Assembly (NCBI GenBank): GCA_016928835.1
Contig: JAFGJW010000006.1
Coordinates: 1 to 64,000 of the forward strand
Reading direction: 5' to 3'
Source: Candidatus Woesearchaeota archaeon
GTDB taxonomy: Archaea > Nanobdellota > Nanobdellia > Woesearchaeales > GW2011-AR15
Length of the DNA: 64,000 nt
The notes under the pieces were generated by a model. It saw nothing but the letters and a program-made list of their open reading frames with translations. It was not told where the DNA came from and ran no database searches. The translations under genes were made by a program, and so were the position numbers. This document shows positions 27,492-47,805 of this stretch, piece by piece; the first letter of the stretch is position 1; the number at the start of each line of letters is the position of its first letter.

Positions 27492-29015
27492 ATGTCTCTT
27501 TTAGGATATCTTGTTAAATTTATGTCTGTAGAACTGATGGAGAAATATATTAGATATAGAAGTAAGGATCCAAAAAAACTTGAAAAACAGTTGCTTAATG
27601 CGAATCCAGAATTTCTGCAGCTGTTAAGTCAAAAAAAAGCTTTATATATTTTTAATAAGGCTGTGAATGAAATTGAATTATATAAAAAATTTCTTAGAAA
27701 AAACCAGGTTGTAGTTCAAAGTATAAAAACCATTGCTGATTTTAGAAAAAAAATTCCAATTATGGACAAAGAAAATTACATAAAAGAGGCAAAAGACATT
27801 AGAGAGCTGTGCTTTAATAAAGACATTAGCAAAATAAATATTCTTTTTGAGAGCTCTGGCTATACCGGGAAACCAAGTATCTGGCCAAAGACAAAGGAAG
27901 AAGAGGAACAGGAAAAAAAATATGTTACAGTCGGTCTTGATATTATTTACAAAACCTATGACAAAAGAACTCTTTTTATTAATACTTTTGCTCTTGGAAG
28001 CTGGGTTACTGGAGTGGAATTAGCAAGAATAAGTGATGGCCACTGCACGCTTATTAACCCAGGACCAAATGAAGGGGAGGTATATGAGATTATTAAGAAT
28101 TTCAGCAAAGATTTTGACCAATTTATTATAGCCGGCTATCCACCATTTATTAAAAATCTTATCGACAAAGGGGGGAGTATTATTAACTGGAAAGAACACA
28201 CAATTCATTTTTTATTGGGTGCTGAAGGCATGCCTGAAGAATTGAGAGATTATATCTTTGAGCAGGTGGGAGAAAAAGCAATTGTAATGTCAGGTTATGG
28301 CGCTTCAGATATCGGAATTACTGGCATTAATGAAACCAAAGAGACTGTTTTAATTAGGAGACTAGCAAGAGATAATCCGCAATTTAACAAAGAAATTTTT
28401 AACGGTCATCATAGAAGTCTCCCGATGTTATTCCAATATGACCCATTAAGTTATTTTATAGAAGTCAATGAGAAAAATGAATTGGTCTTCACAACTATTA
28501 ATATAAACATAGCAATGCCATTAATCAGGTACAATCTTAAAGACACAGGCGGTGTTATCAGTTATGACAAGATGACAGATGTTCTTAAAAGGCATAAAAT
28601 TGATATTAAGTTTGAGTTCCCTTTTCCCTTTATGTATCTAATAGGGAGAAGCGACGGGGCCATTAATTTTTTTGGTTCATTAGTTTATCCCAATTTTATT
28701 AATGGTGTGATATATAAAAATAAAAAATTGAGATCAAAAACAACGAATAACTTCAAACTTAGTGTTAAATATGACAAAGAACATAAGCCAATTCTTTCAA
28801 TAGATATCCAACTAAAAAAGGGAGTAAAAAAGAGTAAAATGTTAAGCAGGTCTTTTGAAAGGCTAATTGAATCTGAAATGTTTGATAAAATTGAAGACTT
28901 GCTTCCAAAGAAAAAATTATTAAGCAAGATGTATAAACAGAGTATTATTAAGGTTCGATTATATTCATTTGATAAATACCCTTATATTAGCGGAATAAAG
29001 ATAAAATATAAATGA
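27492..29015 (+). CDS. PaaK/phenylacetate-CoA-ligase-like AMP-binding protein
   Basis: 507 residues. N-terminal region resembles the PaaK family (helical segment with LYKKFLRKN), the phosphate loop reads ESSGYTGKPSIWPKT, and the adenylate-binding part LLGAEGMPEELRDYI...MSGYGASDIG is present. Members adenylate a carboxylate and pass it to CoA or another acceptor. Acceptor and acid are unknown. The 4-nt ATGA overlap with the decarboxylase gene suggests a joint role, perhaps in lipid modification (inference). Confidence 0.75.
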   Translation: MSLLGYLVKFMSVELMEKYIRYRSKDPKKLEKQLLNANPEFLQLLSQKKALYIFNKAVNEIELYKKFLRKNQVVVQSIKTIADFRKKIPIMDKENYIKEAKDIRELCFNKDISKINILFESSGYTGKPSIWPKTKEEEEQEKKYVTVGLDIIYKTYDKRTLFINTFALGSWVTGVELARISDGHCTLINPGPNEGEVYEIIKNFSKDFDQFIIAGYPPFIKNLIDKGGSIINWKEHTIHFLLGAEGMPEELRDYIFEQVGEKAIVMSGYGASDIGITGINETKETVLIRRLARDNPQFNKEIFNGHHRSLPMLFQYDPLSYFIEVNEKNELVFTTININIAMPLIRYNLKDTGGVISYDKMTDVLKRHKIDIKFEFPFPFMYLIGRSDGAINFFGSLVYPNFINGVIYKNKKLRSKTTNNFKLSVKYDKEHKPILSIDIQLKKGVKKSKMLSRSFERLIESEMFDKIEDLLPKKKLLSKMYKQSIIKVRLYSFDKYPYISGIKIKYK

Positions 29016-29731: not shown

Positions 29732-31717
29732 ATGGAACCAGATTTGTTTGCAAAAGAAGTCTGTACTGTAAATACAAGTCAGCTTGTATGGTTGGTACGG
29801 GCTAATCATGGCCAGGCGGGGATAAGCCAGTTATTAGAAAGGCTTGGTAGTATATCTGAGGACTATTTAAGAGCTACAGAAAATTGGATTTCCTTAGAGG
29901 CATTATTTAGATTATTTGATAATCTACATACGATCTACAGTAATCCAAGCCCCCAATTATTCTTTAATCTAGGAATGGATGTGCAGGCTACACAAGGGGG
30001 AGCATTGGTCACAATTGTCAAATGGGTTGGTACGCCTGAAGCAGTCATTAGGAGCAGCCCAAGTTATAATCGTAGATTTAATGAAGATCAAGAGATAGAA
30101 GTGGTTGAACTTGGAAGAGGACATGCTTTAATTGCCAATTTTTTTCGTCCAGATTATTTTGAGAGAGAAAGGTTAGACCAATGTTATTGGACCAGAGGGA
30201 TACTTGCTGGTGCACCCAGCATATTCGGACAAAAACCAGCAAAAGTCAGAGAGATTGCATGTTCATTTAGACTTGAAGAGATACTGAAGCGAGATTATGC
30301 TTATTTAGATTTAAGCGTTGAAGAGAAAGACGGCCGGATTTATATTAATAGTGAGGAATATGCACATAGAGTTGCTCTAGCATTTCGAGAGTGCAACCCC
30401 CTGTTCTTAAGTGCAAGAGATACTCCTCAAGGAATAGAGAAGGGAACAAGACAGGTCCTTTCAGGCGGTTATCAGGAAATTGGCGAATCAGATGAATTTG
30501 TTGGATATGTGGTAACAAAAACATTGAATATAGATGGAGAGGCAATAATTAAAGAAGGTGAGATTTACAATGCCCCCTATTGCCTCTATGAATTAACTTG
30601 GGAACCGGTCTCTATATGGAGAAGGCTATATCAGAAAACAATAGGAAGAATCCCTCTGTTTTTTGGACGGATAAGAGAATTAGAGGATTTATTAGACAAA
30701 TACGAAGGACTGGTTGATACGTTGGAGAGAAAAGTCCAGGAACGAACAGCAGAACTGGAAACAGAGAAGCTTAGAACAGAAGCTGCTCTTCACAATCTAG
30801 AACAAGCAACACAGAGACTTATACAGTTAGAAACTGAGATTACACTTAGGGGATATGCTGCGGCCCACAGACATGAATGGAATACACATCTAATGATACT
30901 TCGTGCATTCGCTGAAATTCTAAGTGATATTAGCGATTATTTTTCAAGATTATATTTAAGCGGTGCAGATATGTGTGGATTCATATCAAGGGAGCAGCTT
31001 GAGCAGCTTGCCAATGCACGTGAAGCAGCCATGAGATATGGGCAGGCAGCAGCAGAATATGCTACAATGACAGGTACTCCAATCCATAAAAGACTGGCAC
31101 AGTGTGTCAAAAGCATTATAGGCGAGTTAGATACTCTGTCCCAATTATCAGAAGAATTAAAAACCGATTCTGACCCCTCTAGGGTTCATTTAATACCTGA
31201 AAGGATAGAGAAGACTATTGAATTAGCATTATACACTTATACCGAAGCAATGAAACAGCAAGGTGTTCCTGAAATCACCACTGAGATAGATTACCCCCCT
31301 AACCTCCCAATGGTTCTCTACAACCGGCCAAAAATTTATCAGGCTTTGTTGCTTCACTTAAGAAACGCATATCAGTCTATTCTAAAAAGAATGCAAGAAA
31401 GCGGATACAGTGATGACAAGCCAAGAATCTCAGTGCATATATGCTGTGATATAGGCAGTCAATCCGAAGAGCAGAGAGTTTATATAACAATTAGCGATAA
31501 CGGAACAGGCATAGCTGATGAAGATCTATCTAAAATATTCGAACGGTTTTACTCAACAACAGACATGGGAACTGGGATAGGGTTGGCATTGGCAAAAGAG
31601 ATTATTGAAGTAACGCACAAAGGATTAATATATGCAAGAAGCAGATTAGGAAAGGGTTCTGAATTTATCTGGGAACTTCCGGTATATCACAACCCAGTAT
31701 ATCAAGAGGTGGAATAG
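29732..31717 (+). CDS. Sensor histidine kinase with unassigned N-terminal sensor domain
   Basis: 661 residues, soluble. Residues 1-300 form a sensor region I cannot place firmly; the run RPDYFERERLDQCYWTRGIL followed by GAPSIFG recalls V4R/HNOB-like ligand domains. A coiled coil (about 320-375) leads to the H-box AAHRHEWNTHLMILRAFAEI (H379/H381), an N-box (LLLHLRNAYQSI), a G1 box (DNGTGI) and a G2 box (GTGIGLAL). Lysine-poor. The last 53 nt overlap antisense with the dehydrogenase-receiver gene, its probable phosphorelay partner. TATA TTTAAATATAAC at 29702-29713. Confidence 0.85.
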   Translation: MEPDLFAKEVCTVNTSQLVWLVRANHGQAGISQLLERLGSISEDYLRATENWISLEALFRLFDNLHTIYSNPSPQLFFNLGMDVQATQGGALVTIVKWVGTPEAVIRSSPSYNRRFNEDQEIEVVELGRGHALIANFFRPDYFERERLDQCYWTRGILAGAPSIFGQKPAKVREIACSFRLEEILKRDYAYLDLSVEEKDGRIYINSEEYAHRVALAFRECNPLFLSARDTPQGIEKGTRQVLSGGYQEIGESDEFVGYVVTKTLNIDGEAIIKEGEIYNAPYCLYELTWEPVSIWRRLYQKTIGRIPLFFGRIRELEDLLDKYEGLVDTLERKVQERTAELETEKLRTEAALHNLEQATQRLIQLETEITLRGYAAAHRHEWNTHLMILRAFAEILSDISDYFSRLYLSGADMCGFISREQLEQLANAREAAMRYGQAAAEYATMTGTPIHKRLAQCVKSIIGELDTLSQLSEELKTDSDPSRVHLIPERIEKTIELALYTYTEAMKQQGVPEITTEIDYPPNLPMVLYNRPKIYQALLLHLRNAYQSILKRMQESGYSDDKPRISVHICCDIGSQSEEQRVYITISDNGTGIADEDLSKIFERFYSTTDMGTGIGLALAKEIIEVTHKGLIYARSRLGKGSEFIWELPVYHNPVYQEVE

Positions 31718-33413
31718 GAGTTATGTCACCTGCTGTCTCTATCTCTTGAAATACTTGAAGCAGTTGTCCAGAAGAAAGGCTATCATAAGTAGGTTCAATT
31801 GGTACTATTCCCTCATCTTTTCTTAAGAGTATTGATCTAACAGCACGGTATAAAGCATCTAGCACATCTTTTCTGCTTTTTTCAACGAATGCATAAAAGT
31901 GACCAACTGCCTCCTCAACTGCTTCTTTAGTTGCCTCTCCACTCAGGATAATTGCTTCAGGAGTAAACCTTGTTCGAGCGCCATTGATTTCTCTCATGAA
32001 AAAGTCAATGCCTGTTTCATCAGAGGGATTGGGGCTCAATTTATAGTCAACAATAATCACATCATATATTGCCCCAGGTGTCTGTAGCAACCTTCTTGCC
32101 TTATCAACATTAGGGGCGGAATCCACTTGAAAAGAATTAAAGAGTGACAAGCTTTCATCTCTTTGGAGACGCTCAAGTAATATCTGTTCAATTGGTTTAC
32201 AGGGCCCATAAACATCCTCTAACCACAGTATTCTCCTTGTCCTTTTATTTTTAGCATAAGCAAGAACAGTTGAACCAAGCCTGCGTAAAATTCCAACATT
32301 TCTTTCAAACAATCCCTGCTCCCTCTCACTTAATAAAGGGGTACCTGGTTTCAATCTTCCACCTTCCCATTCTGTTGACCAGCCATACACCAAGTTTGCT
32401 TCTAAATTGAATGATCCAACTACTAGCTCCCTACCCTGGTTCTGGTCAGGAAATAAAAGGAAGTGCAGCAGAGTAAGCACTTCAGGTACAACTTGTTCTG
32501 TTGTTCTTCCCTGGCCTTTCATTATATGTGTTCCTTCCTCAGCAATAATTAAATCCAGTGAATCAAGTATATCTTCAGTTATTTGCATTCCAGCACGAAT
32601 TTCTGGAAGTCGTGGTACCTGAGCTCTTTGGTTGTATTGAATGATTCTCGGATTGTAGGAGGCAGCTGATTGTGAGAGGGTTCTGCCAATAATTGGTTCT
32701 CCATTCAATGATGCGCCGCTCCAATGGGTAAACATCGCAGAACCATGCATGCCTAATACATGTGCTTCTAAAGCTGAGTAATTCTCAAGTGTTCTTGGTA
32801 AACCCAATAAATCTAAGATAATGTATGTTGCTCTTGTTGTATCCATAATATGCCCAACAGAATAGAACTTTCGTGGGTCTGGTCCTAGGACTTCAGGATT
32901 GTTGCTATACAAGGATTTTTGAATATTAAAGGAAGCCCAAGTCATTACATCAGAAGGGTTTGTAAGATATAATTGAAGCCCTTGATAGCCTATACTACTG
33001 AGTCCTGCAGCAACATTATGAAGTAAGAAACTATCTACTTGAGCACTGGCAGCTCTTGCTTGCTCGAAATTACCACTTCCCAAAAGATCAGTCTGGGCAG
33101 TATAATCTCCTTGGACACACACAACAACTGCATCTGTGCCATTTATTCCTATTCCATTTTCCAGTGAATTGTCGATTTCATCATAGTCACCTACAACTCC
33201 TATTCGCCTCTCGCCATCGAACCTTTCCACATAATCAAGCGCACCTTCAACGCTTTGACGGAATGACTCTGCTACGCTTCTGGTTCGGTTTAGAAGAACT
33301 ACTTTGTAACCTTGGAGAAGCATTCCTTGTGAAATAGCTTTACCATTGACCCCTGTACCAATTATACCAATTGTGTACCCGTTTTCTGGTATGTAAGCCT
33401 GAGCAAGTGTCAT
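31665..33413 (-). CDS. Lactate/malate-dehydrogenase-like protein fused to a response-regulator receiver domain
   Basis: 582 residues from the ATG at 33413, which follows a TATA box at the right distance; a GTG at 33443 adds 10 residues. Residues about 13-370 match the LDH/MDH family: Rossmann GIIGTGVNG, DAVVVCVQG, TNPSD (N152), IMDTTR (D191, R194) and the catalytic-histidine loop LGMHGSAMFTHWSGA (H223). Residues about 400-525 form a REC domain: acidic ILWLED, phospho-acceptor D456 in IIVDYKL, ILSGEAT, and conserved K512 in FVEKS. I know of no standard protein with this pairing. Confidence 0.85.
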   Translation of the reverse strand: MTLAQAYIPENGYTIGIIGTGVNGKAISQGMLLQGYKVVLLNRTRSVAESFRQSVEGALDYVERFDGERRIGVVGDYDEIDNSLENGIGINGTDAVVVCVQGDYTAQTDLLGSGNFEQARAASAQVDSFLLHNVAAGLSSIGYQGLQLYLTNPSDVMTWASFNIQKSLYSNNPEVLGPDPRKFYSVGHIMDTTRATYIILDLLGLPRTLENYSALEAHVLGMHGSAMFTHWSGASLNGEPIIGRTLSQSAASYNPRIIQYNQRAQVPRLPEIRAGMQITEDILDSLDLIIAEEGTHIMKGQGRTTEQVVPEVLTLLHFLLFPDQNQGRELVVGSFNLEANLVYGWSTEWEGGRLKPGTPLLSEREQGLFERNVGILRRLGSTVLAYAKNKRTRRILWLEDVYGPCKPIEQILLERLQRDESLSLFNSFQVDSAPNVDKARRLLQTPGAIYDVIIVDYKLSPNPSDETGIDFFMREINGARTRFTPEAIILSGEATKEAVEEAVGHFYAFVEKSRKDVLDALYRAVRSILLRKDEGIVPIEPTYDSLSSGQLLQVFQEIETAGDITPIPPLDILGCDIPEVPR

Positions 33414-33460
33414 TTTCCTAAGAACCCTCTTTAGTTTTATCACTCATAAGGAATCATCTA

Positions 33461-33507: not shown

Positions 33508-35049
33508 TTATTGGCGATAGCATGCAGCAGGAACACCAAAAAGATTGGCAAGCATATTTTGCGAACAATGCAGCTCTCTCCAGTCATACTGTGTGATTCT
33601 TTCCGTGCCTGCAACATCTCCAGGTTCAACAATAGATGCTCTATGCGAATTTTTTTCAAGGAATGGACATAGTATTTCTCTTTCTGCTTGACTAAGACCA
33701 ACAGCAACTGCATAGATATGTTTATCAGAAGATGATGCTGCTAATTGTTGTGCAAGATTTTCCCTTAATGACTGTGGTCCTGAATAGGGACAGACCAATA
33801 GCATTCTTGCAGGCACCTCTGTTGCCAGAATATCTACAGCATTAATTGGTACTCCTAAAGCCAGAAGTGTGTTAATATGGTTAGGCTGCTTTTCAGGGTC
33901 AATTTTTCCGTATCGCCCAATATTAGGGTCCAAAAGAGAAATTGCCTGCCAGATCTCTGCAACCTCTTCTACAAGTTCTGCAGGATATAATCTCTGCTGA
34001 GGGCGAAAACGCCTGCGTGCTTCAAGTAAATGTGTGCTTACTTGACCATATGCAGAATCATGCGCATAAATATTCTGCAAAGACAGACAGGAATTTCCAG
34101 CATGAGCATATGCAAATCTCAATGCAATTTCAGCTGCTTTTTCAATTTGCTCTGGTGTTGCATCAGACCCGATTATTAGAACGGGAAAATGGTCTTTGTA
34201 GAAAAAATGTCCTCTAGTGCCCTGTAATACTTCTGATAAGGTGTCAAGAGTTGTTTTTGAACCAAAATATATTCCCCCACAAGTTGTTTCTTGAACAGTG
34301 CCATCAAAAAGATTTAGAAATTTTGGCAGCAATGGCGCGTCCCATCTTCTCTGGGAGCTCCAGGTCAGCCAGTTAAATACCTGTTCAGAAGATTGAGGCA
34401 CACAATATTGCATCAAATCATGCGGAAGGTTATCTGAACTTGAAGATCTAAAAACAATTGATGCTTGATGGCCATTTTTGCAGGCTTGCGCCAGAATCCC
34501 ATAATAGAACATAATTGTGGTCTCATAAATTCCAAGCTGGCCAGAGGTCCATACACAAAGTCTTTCAGGAATTTCATGGGATTCAAAAAAAGATTTCAAA
34601 TCCTCAGTCCCCAAGATCTGGCGCAAGGCTTTTTCTCTACTATCTGGATCACGAAGAGGTTCAACAAAATCTCGACCTAATTGTTCAACTTCTAGTTTAA
34701 GGTCCTCAGGATTCATTATTCCATTTAATAGACAATAGTCCCTAACTAAAGATGATTCGTAACCAAGGTTAATTTCTTGAACCAGCGCTTCATGCATTCC
34801 CTGAATATTCTCCACAGCCTGCTCCAGAGTAAATGGATTTGTTTCGTGTTGGGCAGCTCTGCTTTTCATTTCCTTCTCTAGCTGCTGAACGACTGCTGAA
34901 GAATAATGAGTTGAAGGTGTAGCAATCACTGGTTCACCACTCACAAAGCTTAGTATGCCATTATAGCAGCCATATTGTAAACCCAGCCCAGAAGAAGGTT
35001 CAATCTCTCTTCCTTGGATTATTGCATTAAGAGCTCTCACATTGAACAA
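33508..35049 (-). CDS. Aldehyde-dehydrogenase-superfamily protein, LuxC-like acyl reductase
   Basis: 513 residues. The C-terminal two thirds follow the ALDH fold: FYYGILAQACKNGHQASIVFRSS (cofactor region), GGIYFGS, FPVLIIGSDATPEQI and the nucleophile-cysteine motif HAGNSCLSLQNIY. The N-terminal 170 residues are divergent. Paired with a LuxE/PaaK-like gene by a 13-nt overlap, it is best read as a LuxC-type reductase turning an activated acyl group into an aldehyde. A plain aldehyde dehydrogenase is the alternative. Lysine-poor (about 2.7%). Confidence 0.7.
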   Translation of the reverse strand: MFNVRALNAIIQGREIEPSSGLGLQYGCYNGILSFVSGEPVIATPSTHYSSAVVQQLEKEMKSRAAQHETNPFTLEQAVENIQGMHEALVQEINLGYESSLVRDYCLLNGIMNPEDLKLEVEQLGRDFVEPLRDPDSREKALRQILGTEDLKSFFESHEIPERLCVWTSGQLGIYETTIMFYYGILAQACKNGHQASIVFRSSSSDNLPHDLMQYCVPQSSEQVFNWLTWSSQRRWDAPLLPKFLNLFDGTVQETTCGGIYFGSKTTLDTLSEVLQGTRGHFFYKDHFPVLIIGSDATPEQIEKAAEIALRFAYAHAGNSCLSLQNIYAHDSAYGQVSTHLLEARRRFRPQQRLYPAELVEEVAEIWQAISLLDPNIGRYGKIDPEKQPNHINTLLALGVPINAVDILATEVPARMLLVCPYSGPQSLRENLAQQLAASSSDKHIYAVAVGLSQAEREILCPFLEKNSHRASIVEPGDVAGTERITQYDWRELHCSQNMLANLFGVPAACYRQ

Positions 35050-36428
35050 CCCCCTCTTGAAGCTTTTTGACTTAACAGTAGGTTACCTTGGTCATACCCA
35101 CGACTCCTCGCTATCTCTCTATCCACCAACCAAGCTCTTCCATTTGGGTCTAATTTTATAACATAAAGCGCATTGCCTGGTCTAGACCTTACTGCAATTT
35201 TTAATGAAGGAAGAATCAGATATTCTCTTGATTCACGATCATAGTAAGAAGCAGCAACATTAGTCTCATCAACCTCTCCCACATATCCTGGTGCAGCAGG
35301 CCTCCCATCTGGGCCGCTAACCATTGTAAACGTGGGGCCGAGCGGAAATAACCGTAAGGTGCTCATAGCTTCAAGCATATCCTCAACACTGCCTCCATGA
35401 AGTCTGCTGTTCCATTCTGCACAACCTGTAGGGAGGCATCTTGTATTGCCTGAAGATGTGTAGATTAGCTGGATTCCCCGCTCATGCATTCTCCGGAGCT
35501 GAGCATCAGAAATATTGGCACTGGTCATGAGTGCATATCTTAATGTATCAACATTCGCATCTAGCATACCCTCAAAGCCTAGTCCTTTAGCTTTGGCTAT
35601 TGCAGTAGGTGGTGCTGCAGCAAGCTCTGGTTGATATTGCTCCAAGATACCATTCCAGTGTTCTGGAGAACAGCCATCTGGGGCGTCAATAACAGTGATC
35701 CCGTAACCCAGGTAAAGAACATGTCTCCACAGCCAGCCGCCAATGTGTCTTTTGCTAAATGAACACGCAGCATTAGCTACCTTCCCTAATTCAGGAGCAT
35801 GTTTCAAAAGACTCATATATAATGCCTGAACAGATGCCCTCAAATCAGCATTTGGAAATAGAACCAAATAATCTTCCCCGGGACGCTTATTAGTTGTTCC
35901 GCCAGTATATAGTTCTAAAGAAAGGATCATATTGGGATCCAAATCAGTTATTCTGCATTCCAGTTTTCGAGATTCTTCTGAGTAAAGCTCAGCAAGAGGT
36001 GCCGGCAAATCATTTAGCCATGCTTTTCTTCCAAGAGCTCTTGAGTCTGTGGGTGGAATTTTATAAAAATCATCCCATGATTCAATTGGACTCAAAATAG
36101 GGTCAATATCATTATCCTTGCAATGCAGATAAAATGAAGGACACACATGATATGCAAAAGCAACTGCATTTCTGACTAGTTTCAACTGGAGCCTGTCAAT
36201 CGCACTCCAGCCAAGCTGTGGTCCTTGCCCAGGAATTGGATCAAGTCTAGGGTCAGCAAGTGTCCTAAAAGCAAAATTGTCTCTTTGAGAATGAACAGCA
36301 AATTTTTTCCAATATCCAGCAAAATTCCCAAGAGAGATTCTCTGGCCTCCAATCTGTTCTGATTCGTATGGTAAATCAACTCTATCAGTACCAAGTTTTT
36401 CAGCTAACCCACCAAATATTCTCGCCAT
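35037..36428 (-). CDS. LuxE/PaaK-like acyl-adenylating enzyme
   Basis: 463 residues. Family features: the helical entry HVCPSFYLHCKDNDIDPI, DFYKIPPTDSRAL, the phosphate loop ELYTGGTTNKRPGEDYLV (about residue 172) and LRYALMTSANIS followed by YTSSGNTRCLPTG. LuxE and PaaK proteins adenylate a carboxylic acid and pass the acyl group to a thiol. The gene has a strong AGGAGGT Shine-Dalgarno at 36434-36440 and overlaps the LuxC-like start by 13 nt, implying coupled synthesis. Lysine-poor. Confidence 0.72.
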   Translation of the reverse strand: MARIFGGLAEKLGTDRVDLPYESEQIGGQRISLGNFAGYWKKFAVHSQRDNFAFRTLADPRLDPIPGQGPQLGWSAIDRLQLKLVRNAVAFAYHVCPSFYLHCKDNDIDPILSPIESWDDFYKIPPTDSRALGRKAWLNDLPAPLAELYSEESRKLECRITDLDPNMILSLELYTGGTTNKRPGEDYLVLFPNADLRASVQALYMSLLKHAPELGKVANAACSFSKRHIGGWLWRHVLYLGYGITVIDAPDGCSPEHWNGILEQYQPELAAAPPTAIAKAKGLGFEGMLDANVDTLRYALMTSANISDAQLRRMHERGIQLIYTSSGNTRCLPTGCAEWNSRLHGGSVEDMLEAMSTLRLFPLGPTFTMVSGPDGRPAAPGYVGEVDETNVAASYYDRESREYLILPSLKIAVRSRPGNALYVIKLDPNGRAWLVDREIARSRGYDQGNLLLSQKASRGGCSM

Positions 36429-36495: not shown

Positions 36496-37809
36496 CTACT
36501 CTGTGAGCAGTTTGTTATAGATAATTAGAGATGAGACTGACTGGTTACAGACTTGTGAAGATTTGCTCATTTTTGCACCGATCTCCCCAAATGTATGGAA
36601 GCCGAACAAAGGAACCCCTTTATATTTCCTCCTGGCAATATCAATCTCTGCAGTGACATCTTTTCCTAATAAGGCCTTTCTTCCGCAGCAAGAGAAGACC
36701 AAGCCAAGGGCAATCTCCTTGTGGGAGTGTATATCATCAGCCTCTTTCAGTGCATAATAGACTGCTTCTTTTGTCTTCTTTGGATCATAGTTAACTACAA
36801 CTGAAGCAGTATTCTCCTGGACTTTTGTCAATGTATACCATGTTTTTCTATCAGGATTAGGCGCACCTGATTTTATGTATACATTTCCAAAAGTATCCAG
36901 CACACCCAGCGGATGCGCTAAGATATATTTGAAAGGATTTTTTGTAAGCTCATCCACACTTACTTTAAGAATTCTCGCGTATTCTTCAACAGCTGGTTTG
37001 CCATTAATTTCTTGAATTATATGGCCTGTCTTATCAACTTTTGTAAGTAAAGCAACATTGTTGGCAACACAATAGCCGTGTGTAAAGCTGTGTGCAAAAT
37101 ATAGGTCAGACACAACAAAGACAATTATCGCAGCATCATAATAAAGCTTGCCATTGGCAAATTGGAAGTTGTTGGTAATTTTTTCTTTGGTGTACTTATC
37201 CCAATCTGTACTTGATGAACCTCCAATGATAGGGATATTTGGACCAGTTATCTTAAAAACACCCTCAAGGAATTCTGCCTCCATGCCCGGCAACGGATTT
37301 CCCTGCTTGTCAAATTTAACCCCACAGATAAGGGTCAGGATAAAATAGGGCGGTATCCTTACTATTTCATGGAAGGATTTTGTTTGCGACCTTCTGAACT
37401 GTATATAGGGATCCACATAATGGTCAACATGAACATTTTTCATTGCTTCTTGTATGGCTTTTTCACCTGAACTTGCTGGATTCTTGTGATACTTGTCAAC
37501 CACCCCAACACCAAAATGCAAATATTCAGATGAGATAGTCAACACAGATATGGTCCCCTGTTCAAAACCATGTGTACTTGTCAGCTGGGTGTCAGTTGAG
37601 CAGCCAATCCACGTATTGCCCAAGATTTCATTGCCTGCTTTAAGAATCTCCTTTTCATCATAATTTGAATCTGCATACAGTATAGAAAAAGTTGCTCCTC
37701 TTAATCCATCCAACGAATCTTTAGCAGCCTTAAGTGCTGTTTGATAAGTGTCCTTGCCTTTGGCCACACCAATACTTACTTTTATTTTTGAAGAATTTTT
37801 TTTCCCCAT
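36496..37809 (-). CDS. FIST-domain sensory protein
   Basis: 437 residues from the ATG at 37809, which has GAGGTG 6 nt upstream; a GTG at 37818 lies inside that Shine-Dalgarno. FIST-N features: SIGVAKGKDTYQTALKAAK, FSILYADSNYDEKEIL, WIGCSTDTQLTSTHG, PIIGGSSSTDWD. FIST-C features: KPAVEEYARIL, VLDTFGNVYIKSG, GLVFSCCGRKALLG and PLFGFHTFGEIG. FIST domains are thought to bind small ligands such as amino acids and often sit beside histidine kinases. Lysine-rich like the host proteins. The LuxE-like gene follows after 67 nt. Confidence 0.85.
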   Translation of the reverse strand: MGKKNSSKIKVSIGVAKGKDTYQTALKAAKDSLDGLRGATFSILYADSNYDEKEILKAGNEILGNTWIGCSTDTQLTSTHGFEQGTISVLTISSEYLHFGVGVVDKYHKNPASSGEKAIQEAMKNVHVDHYVDPYIQFRRSQTKSFHEIVRIPPYFILTLICGVKFDKQGNPLPGMEAEFLEGVFKITGPNIPIIGGSSSTDWDKYTKEKITNNFQFANGKLYYDAAIIVFVVSDLYFAHSFTHGYCVANNVALLTKVDKTGHIIQEINGKPAVEEYARILKVSVDELTKNPFKYILAHPLGVLDTFGNVYIKSGAPNPDRKTWYTLTKVQENTASVVVNYDPKKTKEAVYYALKEADDIHSHKEIALGLVFSCCGRKALLGKDVTAEIDIARRKYKGVPLFGFHTFGEIGAKMSKSSQVCNQSVSSLIIYNKLLTE

Positions 37810-37972
37810 ATTTCCCACCTCTTAGCAATTCAAAATAAAAATTATCTTGATAATATAATGGCAATATAGATATATAAATGTATTTATAGACTTGCATTTA
37901 TTACCTTTAAAAAATAGTAACATTTATATTTACAGCAAATAATATTGGTTATGTATTATTTGGGGGATAAGT

Positions 37973-45810: not shown

Positions 45811-47805
45811 TTAGCTCGCAGTATAAAATGCATAAGGACTACCTTTGACTCCTCTTTGTCCGCCATATCGTGTTTTCAACCTGTCTGCGGTGTGAGCCCC
45901 CTTACGGACAGCATTAGGCGATATACGCGACACAGGTACTTGATGATCCCATGCAACAAGTTCAACTAATTCAGTTGAAGAATATTCACCACCACCACCT
46001 AGAATCTCTCTCACTGTTGATGCTATCGACCTTCGCTCAGATGGCCCAGCATTTGTGTGTGGTTGAACGAATCCTATAAGGGATGTTGGAGGATAAATAA
46101 GTTCTCCTGAAAATTCATCATTTTCTTGATGTAGACCTGGAAAAATAAAGGCTCTGCCATAAGGCATTCCAGCTAATTTTCTTCTATATACTTCCTGCTT
46201 GTCTGTCCTAATATATTTTCTTTTCAATTCCTCTAATCTTTGTAAGTCTCCTTCCGCTCTAATATCCCCTAATATCCCAAGCAATTCCTGAACTGCAACT
46301 CTTATTCTCTCTAAATTAATATCATATCTCTCATCTCCAAAATCAATAATCGCCTCCCGGTCCAAAAAGTAGTGGAACATTAGATTTCTTGAACCATTGT
46401 GATCTATTGGGTCTGTTTTAAGCGCAACTAGCATAGAAATTAACATATCATAATATCCAGCAATCTCTTCTTGTTCTGTTATTATTTCTTGAGCAACCAG
46501 AAATGGCAATGACCACATACTGAATACTTCTGCTCTCGCTTCTTCTAGAATAGAATACTGTTCACCAAAATGCTGCTTAGGATTATTGTCTTTCACTACA
46601 CCGGTCCTGTGACCTAGCTCATGTGCTGCAGTCATTATAATACCTGATCGAGATAACAACTCCCTATAGGGTGATATACGTTCCTGAGGCAGAAACGCAT
46701 CAATAACATAACTAATAAGACCTGCATCTTCAATAGCTTCCCGAGTATTTACAAGTACAATATTAACTGAACCGTATTGGTCTACAATTGCCTCATCATC
46801 AGGTAAAGATTCCGCGCTGACTGTTCCAGGGAATAGGTTATAGAACCCTGCCCAGCGAAGCACATCTACAAACTGCAGGTTAGGTAGATTAGGTAGATTA
46901 GTTGGATCTATTTCTATTTTTTGCTTCCATGGAGCTAATTGTTCCATTTCCGGAAGTTGTTTAGCTAATGTATCAGCCAAGGATTGGAGTCTTTCATTTC
47001 GAACATAAACAATAGCCTGAGCAGCACCCCTCACACCAAAGCGTTTATCTAAGTAAAGCTCAACTCCCGTACCAAGAATGAACCCGATTTTACCAACATT
47101 ATCTTGAATCCAAGCCCTCCAACTTTCTTTTCTTGCAGGTTCCAGTCCTGTTTCTAACTCCACAATTTTTGCTCTTATATACCTAGCTAAACCAGTATCA
47201 GATGTAAATCGTTCTGCTCTTTCTAATGCAGATATAACTGGACCCAATTCATTACCAAATCTTTTCTCGTTTAATACAACCTCTAGTGTACCTCTCGGGC
47301 CTCTTATGACTGTGGAATTTTCAATATTTGATGCTGGCCCTAATGCTTCATATTCTTGGTGGGTCATATCCCAGGGATATAGACCTCTTCCCTGGGGGGG
47401 CATTGCTTCTCCCCACAAAATATCTGCAAAGCTATGTAGAGAATGTCCTTCAGGAATTTGATCCTGTGTAAAAGGGAATCTAATTCTCTCATTGAACATA
47501 TTCCAAGGTGAACTAGCTGCAAGAAAAACAGTCATATAATTACCAAATTTTGTGAGATTTCCTGAATCTTCAAGTGTTGATCCAAAGTCAACTAAAGCAT
47601 CACGTAACTCACAACCCCTATCATATTGCTGCTGAGCAAATATTGGTGCAATTCCATCAACTGCTTCAGACAGCGCAGAAAGAACAACTAATTCTTCTTG
47701 CGTTAAACCAGAAACACCAAAAGGAATCTGTATCTCAAGTGCAATGTTTGACTCTAAGCCACTAGCTCTTTCCAAATCATATGGAATCTCATTAATTTTT
47801 GGCAT
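45811..47805 (-). CDS. Metallopeptidase resembling the M49 (dipeptidyl-peptidase III) family
   Basis: 664 residues. Zinc motif AAHELGHRTG (H395, E396, H399) and, about 25 residues on, LEEARAEVFSMW, which matches the EECRAE motif that supplies the third ligand in M49 enzymes. DPP III has HELLGH; here the shorter HELGH form is present. No signal peptide, so probably cytoplasmic peptide trimming. Lysine-poor, like the 29.7-41.1 kb cluster. Strong GGGGGGTG Shine-Dalgarno before the ATG at 47805. Confidence 0.68.
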   Translation of the reverse strand: MPKINEIPYDLERASGLESNIALEIQIPFGVSGLTQEELVVLSALSEAVDGIAPIFAQQQYDRGCELRDALVDFGSTLEDSGNLTKFGNYMTVFLAASSPWNMFNERIRFPFTQDQIPEGHSLHSFADILWGEAMPPQGRGLYPWDMTHQEYEALGPASNIENSTVIRGPRGTLEVVLNEKRFGNELGPVISALERAERFTSDTGLARYIRAKIVELETGLEPARKESWRAWIQDNVGKIGFILGTGVELYLDKRFGVRGAAQAIVYVRNERLQSLADTLAKQLPEMEQLAPWKQKIEIDPTNLPNLPNLQFVDVLRWAGFYNLFPGTVSAESLPDDEAIVDQYGSVNIVLVNTREAIEDAGLISYVIDAFLPQERISPYRELLSRSGIIMTAAHELGHRTGVVKDNNPKQHFGEQYSILEEARAEVFSMWSLPFLVAQEIITEQEEIAGYYDMLISMLVALKTDPIDHNGSRNLMFHYFLDREAIIDFGDERYDINLERIRVAVQELLGILGDIRAEGDLQRLEELKRKYIRTDKQEVYRRKLAGMPYGRAFIFPGLHQENDEFSGELIYPPTSLIGFVQPHTNAGPSERRSIASTVREILGGGGEYSSTELVELVAWDHQVPVSRISPNAVRKGAHTADRLKTRYGGQRGVKGSPYAFYTAS

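Follow-up and report, generated by a model that had tools for sequence, protein, structure and literature searches.

A dehydrogenase-like protein with a divergent C-terminal receiver-like domain, encoded beside a histidine kinase in a Woesearchaeota archaeon

The window analysed here is a stretch of 64,000 nucleotides from a Candidatus Woesearchaeota archaeon (assembly GCA_016928835.1, contig JAFGJW010000006.1), within which a gene for a lactate/malate dehydrogenase (LDH/MDH)-like protein extended by a receiver-like domain meets a histidine kinase gene end to end. The genes and features of the locus are:

27492 to 29015, plus strand: GH3/PaaK-like ligase (profile searches)
29732 to 31717, plus strand: cytosolic histidine kinase, presumed to be the cognate kinase; its gene lies tail-to-tail with that of the fusion
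31665 to 31717, unstranded: overlap of the 3' ends of the kinase and fusion genes, 53 bases (open reading frame coordinates)
31665 to 33413, minus strand: LDH-like/receiver fusion protein, 582 amino acids from ATG, stop codon TAA
33462 to 33471, minus strand: TATA-like box TTTAAATATA, archaeal in type, roughly 50 bases 5' of the ATG, a putative promoter element
33508 to 35049, minus strand: aldehyde-dehydrogenase-like protein upstream of the fusion gene (weak match, Cys region only, E 0.014)
35037 to 36428, minus strand: acyl/aryl-adenylating-enzyme-like protein (AMP-binding E 4.1e-5, under the Pfam cut-off)

The fusion frame is open throughout, without an internal stop, and position 33413, which the sequence-only reading had given as its end, is the ATG start of the 582-codon frame. 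Translation from a GTG at 33443 (open reading frame 31665-33443, minus strand) would yield 592 amino acids, the ten added codons reading VIKLKRVLRK, a lysine-rich stretch in contrast to the remaining protein; the position of the TATA-like box and the dissimilarity of this extension together make the ATG start plausible. The kinase combines a V4R-like sensor (weak, E 2.8e-4), a coiled coil and a HATPase domain (E 3.7e-18), and carries HRHEWNTH as a putative phospho-His motif. The aldehyde-dehydrogenase-like and AMP-binding-like genes overlap by 13 bases; a search of 279 genomes of the phylum turned up relatives of neither.

Judged by profile and alignment, the N-terminal domain of the fusion protein is a divergent member of the LDH/MDH superfamily. 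The fusion matched TIGR01771 (L-LDH; E 6e-7) and NF004863 (E 4.7e-6) in NCBIfam, its N-terminal part alone matched 1a5z in a PDB sequence search (E 4.8e-6), and tblastn matched bacterial L-LDH-like genes at E 2e-6 over residues 25-263. With 29.1 bits against the TIGR01771 L-LDH equivalog cut-off of 303.55 bits, and 12.2 against the Pfam Ldh_1_C cut-off of 22.6, these profile matches lie below curated thresholds, and the domain is therefore treated as a superfamily member and not as an equivalog. Alignments were made with bacterial LDHs, which gave 20-26% identity to genuine LDHs, and with LDH/MDHs of the same archaeal order; GxGxxG, the loop Arg, TNPxD, DxxR, HG and the late Thr are all kept, at the following places:

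32250 to 33413, minus strand: N-terminal LDH/MDH-superfamily domain, residues 1-388 (NCBIfam, PDB, tblastn, alignments)
33342 to 33359, minus strand: Rossmann loop GTGVNG, residues 19-24 (alignment)
33279 to 33290, minus strand: NRTR (residues 42-45) following strand 2, at the Asp position of NAD-dependent LDHs
33054 to 33056, minus strand: R120, at the position of the substrate-loop Arg, LDH R109 (alignment)
32949 to 32963, minus strand: TNPSD motif, residues 151-155 (alignment)
32832 to 32843, minus strand: DTTR motif with D191 and R194 (LDH D168 and R171; alignment)
32739 to 32750, minus strand: MHGS with the putative catalytic H223 (LDH H195; alignment)
32499 to 32516, minus strand: GQGRTT, residues 300-305, with the late Thr of the LDH active site (alignment)

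As aligned, the catalytic positions are all occupied (R120, N152, D191, R194, H223 and T304/305), and so complete a set despite the low identity argues for retained catalysis. The protein thus shares with the L-lactate/malate dehydrogenase superfamily (TIGR01771, PF02866) its fold by profile, its Rossmann loop and the R/D/R/H/T set, and differs from it in scoring far under the cut-offs, in a longer active-site loop, in further insertions elsewhere, in having N-R-T where an Asp normally follows the second strand, and in the attached receiver. The N-R-T replacement suggests use of NADP(H). Given the identity, the loop, the insertions and this replacement, the earlier label of a central-metabolism dehydrogenase was too strong.

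The rest of the host genome yielded no canonical LDH/MDH; such an enzyme is present in 60 of 260 sampled genomes of the same archaeal order. A stand-alone divergent LDH-like protein in another genome (L096:6813-7817, genome G090) contains 1.5% lysine and shares the NRT motif, and that genome also has the kinase module described below, at another place. The best match to the fusion dehydrogenase among the archaeal proteins compared (E 3e-8) was an LDH/MDH-like protein (L097:5775-6659, genome G242), encoded in a run with apparent Lrp-type regulators and a DAHP-synthase-like gene.

The divergence of the domain and its enlarged active-site loop would also suit a sensor, which would bind NAD(P)H or a keto acid, modulate the draining or acceptance of phosphate by the receiver and so report redox to the relay, and archaeal receivers are often linked to ligand-binding and not to output domains (PMC5847659). 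We consider this role unlikely, since the full catalytic set would be superfluous for mere binding, the kinase has a sensor domain of its own, and the fusion gene stands in a run of enzyme-like genes.

The kinase sensor has homologues in nine further genomes of the phylum, and at all nine of these related loci a receiver or receiver-like gene lies directly 3' of the kinase. Five of the pairs (L067-L071) are tail-to-tail, with 8-111 bases between the stops, the same arrangement as at the fusion gene, while in the other four (L072, L081, L082, L083) the partner follows the kinase on the same strand. Three of the nine partners are recognised as receivers by Pfam (L081, E 5e-7; L082, E 1.1e-6; L083, E 5.4e-16); the other six are as cryptic as the fusion receiver, those of L070 and L071 being the least certain. 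Wherever motifs are readable, the partners follow the D-D / D / S-T / K pattern, as in the fusion. These partners hold the same position beside a homologous kinase as the fusion protein does. Unlike it, none of the nine has a dehydrogenase attached: those of L067-L071 are proteins of 168-261 amino acids, and those of L072 and L081-L083 have a different C-terminal region. This positional evidence is the strongest for the identity of the receiver, and the conserved receiver slot beside the kinase indicates that the fusion protein takes the place of the partner receiver, preceded by an added dehydrogenase. Its pairing with the kinase next to it, already proposed from the sequence, is better supported now that a receiver or receiver-like partner has been found in nine other genomes.

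The related loci (L067-L072, L081-L083) form a recurring module of a GH3/PaaK-like ligase, the V4R-like kinase, its receiver or receiver-like partner and, often, an alpha/beta hydrolase; at six of these loci a ligase homologous to the one at 27492-29015 adjoins the kinase, and one of the remaining three lies at a contig edge. Partner receivers at L072:5487-6866, L081:6376-7551 and L082:5886-7061 have an unassigned C-terminal region of about 200-250 amino acids, possibly other outputs, and at L067:2645-5136 a second receiver-like protein and a kinase-like protein adjoin the first pair.

Within the fusion protein, the features assigned to the receiver are:

31809 to 32240, minus strand: C-terminal receiver-like domain, about residues 392-535 (profile, motif register, synteny)
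32214 to 32219, minus strand: acidic pocket E399-D400 (sequence)
32046 to 32048, minus strand: putative phospho-acceptor D456, in VIIVDYKL (register test)
31941 to 31943, minus strand: conserved Ser/Thr position, S491 (register test)
31878 to 31880, minus strand: conserved Lys, K512, in FVEKS (register test)

All five hallmark residues (E399-D400, D456, S491 and K512) occur, in the correct order. The public libraries did not recognise the domain: it was unmatched up to E 10 in Pfam (PF00072), its only NCBIfam match, at 0.12, was to a hybrid kinase/regulator family, and a PDB sequence search did not identify it. The check first proposed for the fusion, recovery of both domains by profile search, consequently succeeded for the LDH/MDH part and failed in these libraries for the receiver; taken to the letter, this is an outcome that the sequence-only reading had named as refuting it. 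A profile of canonical receivers alone likewise could not separate the domain from its shuffles. When it was aligned to a profile of ordinary receivers, however, its D, S and K landed on the canonical columns, as happened in one of 3,000 shuffles and in none of 552 segments of other window proteins. Against a broadened profile, built from canonical receivers and receivers adjoining the homologous kinases, the domain ranked first of 3,001, with 10.9 bits, the highest-scoring of 3,000 shuffles reaching 5.7. It went undetected when the profile held only the partner receivers (rank 515 of 3,001), so that the case for a receiver is built on the mixed profile, the motif register and synteny. We judge the profile signal to be real but modest. 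Single-sequence AlphaFold models of the full-length protein and of the receiver only reached a mean pLDDT of 34 and 51, respectively, and a fold search returned no significant match; strands alternate with helices in the receiver model, a poor one at pLDDT 51.

That the C-terminal domain is instead a degenerate or unrelated alpha/beta domain for oligomerisation only, in an otherwise unusual dehydrogenase, would agree with its invisibility to public profiles and PDB sequences and with the canonical profile's inability to tell it from shuffles. This explanation has to set aside the first rank of 3,001 with the broadened profile, the D/S/K register and the conserved receiver slot beside the kinase, and we hold it to be distinctly improbable. 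The weaker sequence signals taken together with synteny argue that residues 392-535 are a genuine, very divergent receiver.

Near the receiver, the in-frame starts are TTG 368, the last before it and situated within the dehydrogenase, and TTG 422, beyond the acidic pocket; a separate intact receiver product is therefore hardly possible. The joining of two genes by an assembly or sequencing error, to which a singleton architecture in one draft genome of 20 contigs might be attributed, is very improbable in the face of the single frame, the lack of a usable start codon immediately ahead of the receiver and the receiver's place in the kinase-partner slot. With one intact frame, LDH/MDH profile matches, receiver hallmarks and a conserved position, the dehydrogenase-receiver fusion recognised by the sequence-only reading is borne out.

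The host assembly (1.53 Mb, 95% complete, 0.2% contaminated) encodes several ordinary kinases and receivers, and the genes present point to an archaeon of DPANN type. The fusion gene lies on a contig of 328,730 bases, the window also holds archaeal GatE and IF-5A, and the third-position GC of the gene is that of its neighbours and host, all of which makes contamination unlikely. The fusion has been seen so far in one genome, with no second example found: the fusion protein, used to scan viral and genome contigs for close relatives, gave none, and scans of viral contigs with probe alignments A1 and A4, whose extra rows were invented to loosen peptide patterns and are a search device and not data, gave no match. 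Two dehydrogenase-like loci from Acidilobaceae/Caldisphaera, the only ones picked up in the genome-contig probe scan, are not relatives of the fusion. A reading as anti-phage defence was also set aside, as PADLOC gave no convincing match.

The reading that we favour, and to which we give somewhat better than even chances, is that the fusion protein would serve the neighbouring V4R-like kinase as its cognate response regulator, the built-in output being an NAD(P)-dependent dehydrogenase of 2-hydroxyacid/ketoacid type; a sensor kinase would then probably control a metabolic enzyme directly. The kinase (29732-31717) would detect a small molecule and autophosphorylate, the phosphate would be passed to D456, and the phosphorylated receiver would alter the predicted activity, or the assembly, of the dehydrogenase, with a likewise presumed direction of control. 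It is the catalytic integrity of the dehydrogenase that favours an output over a role in structure or sensing only. The enzyme would probably join the adenylase-like and aldehyde-dehydrogenase-like enzymes of its gene run in a small putative pathway of carboxylate/aldehyde/hydroxyacid conversion. The fuller account, in which an ancestral separate receiver of the kinase became fused to an LDH-like dehydrogenase and so gave rise to a phospho-switched redox enzyme gating this local carboxylate/aldehyde/hydroxyacid pathway, is offered tentatively, at slightly less than even chances.

The sequence-only reading named DNA-binding or second-messenger outputs as the norm for response regulators; this holds for bacteria, but enzymes are also on record as outputs, archaea included (PMC5847659). 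Those described in bacteria and archaea include KaiC-REC, the REC-glycosyltransferase MTH_548, REC-PP2C, REC-thioredoxin reductase and REC-pyruvate phosphate dikinase (PPDK) (PMC5847659). The fusion protein resembles these enzyme-output regulators in joining a receiver and a metabolic or signalling enzyme in one chain, and in being phyletically narrow and, like most of them, unstudied; it differs in that its enzyme belongs to the LDH/MDH superfamily and is N-terminal, and in that its receiver is too divergent for Pfam. The main text of PMC5847659 does not contain the word "dehydrogenase" and mentions no LDH/MDH-type output, and no report of such an output or of an LDH-receiver fusion was found in the open-licence literature searched. 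Enzyme-output response regulators being already known, the new element would be an output of LDH/MDH type. In archaea, most response regulators lack a recognisable output, and the way in which the kinases influence the cell is still to be settled (PMC5847659). The output proposed here would belong to a well-understood class of enzymes that can be assayed simply by spectrophotometry, which makes phospho-control of metabolism by an archaeal kinase directly testable. Since the recurring pair of kinase and receiver-like protein is mostly missed by Pfam, the two-component systems of these archaea are under-counted.

Beyond the adenylase-like gene lies a FIST-domain gene on the same strand, and then a divergent aminotransferase. 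The FIST-domain protein (window 36496-37818), which adjoins the adenylase-like gene, is NosP-like (E 2.2e-21); FIST proteins often work with kinases. A Peptidase M49 (dipeptidyl-peptidase III-like; E 6.6e-12), here in an archaeon, is encoded at 45811-47805 of the window. Between 29732 and 47805, the genes beginning at 29732, 31665, 33508, 35037, 37973, 39910 and 45811 encode proteins very low in lysine (1.7-3.8%) and high in arginine, most of their neighbours having about 10% lysine, and the third-position GC of the set is host-like. Low-lysine genes also lie beside the kinase homologues in related genomes, and the set could reflect an old transfer or a shared function.
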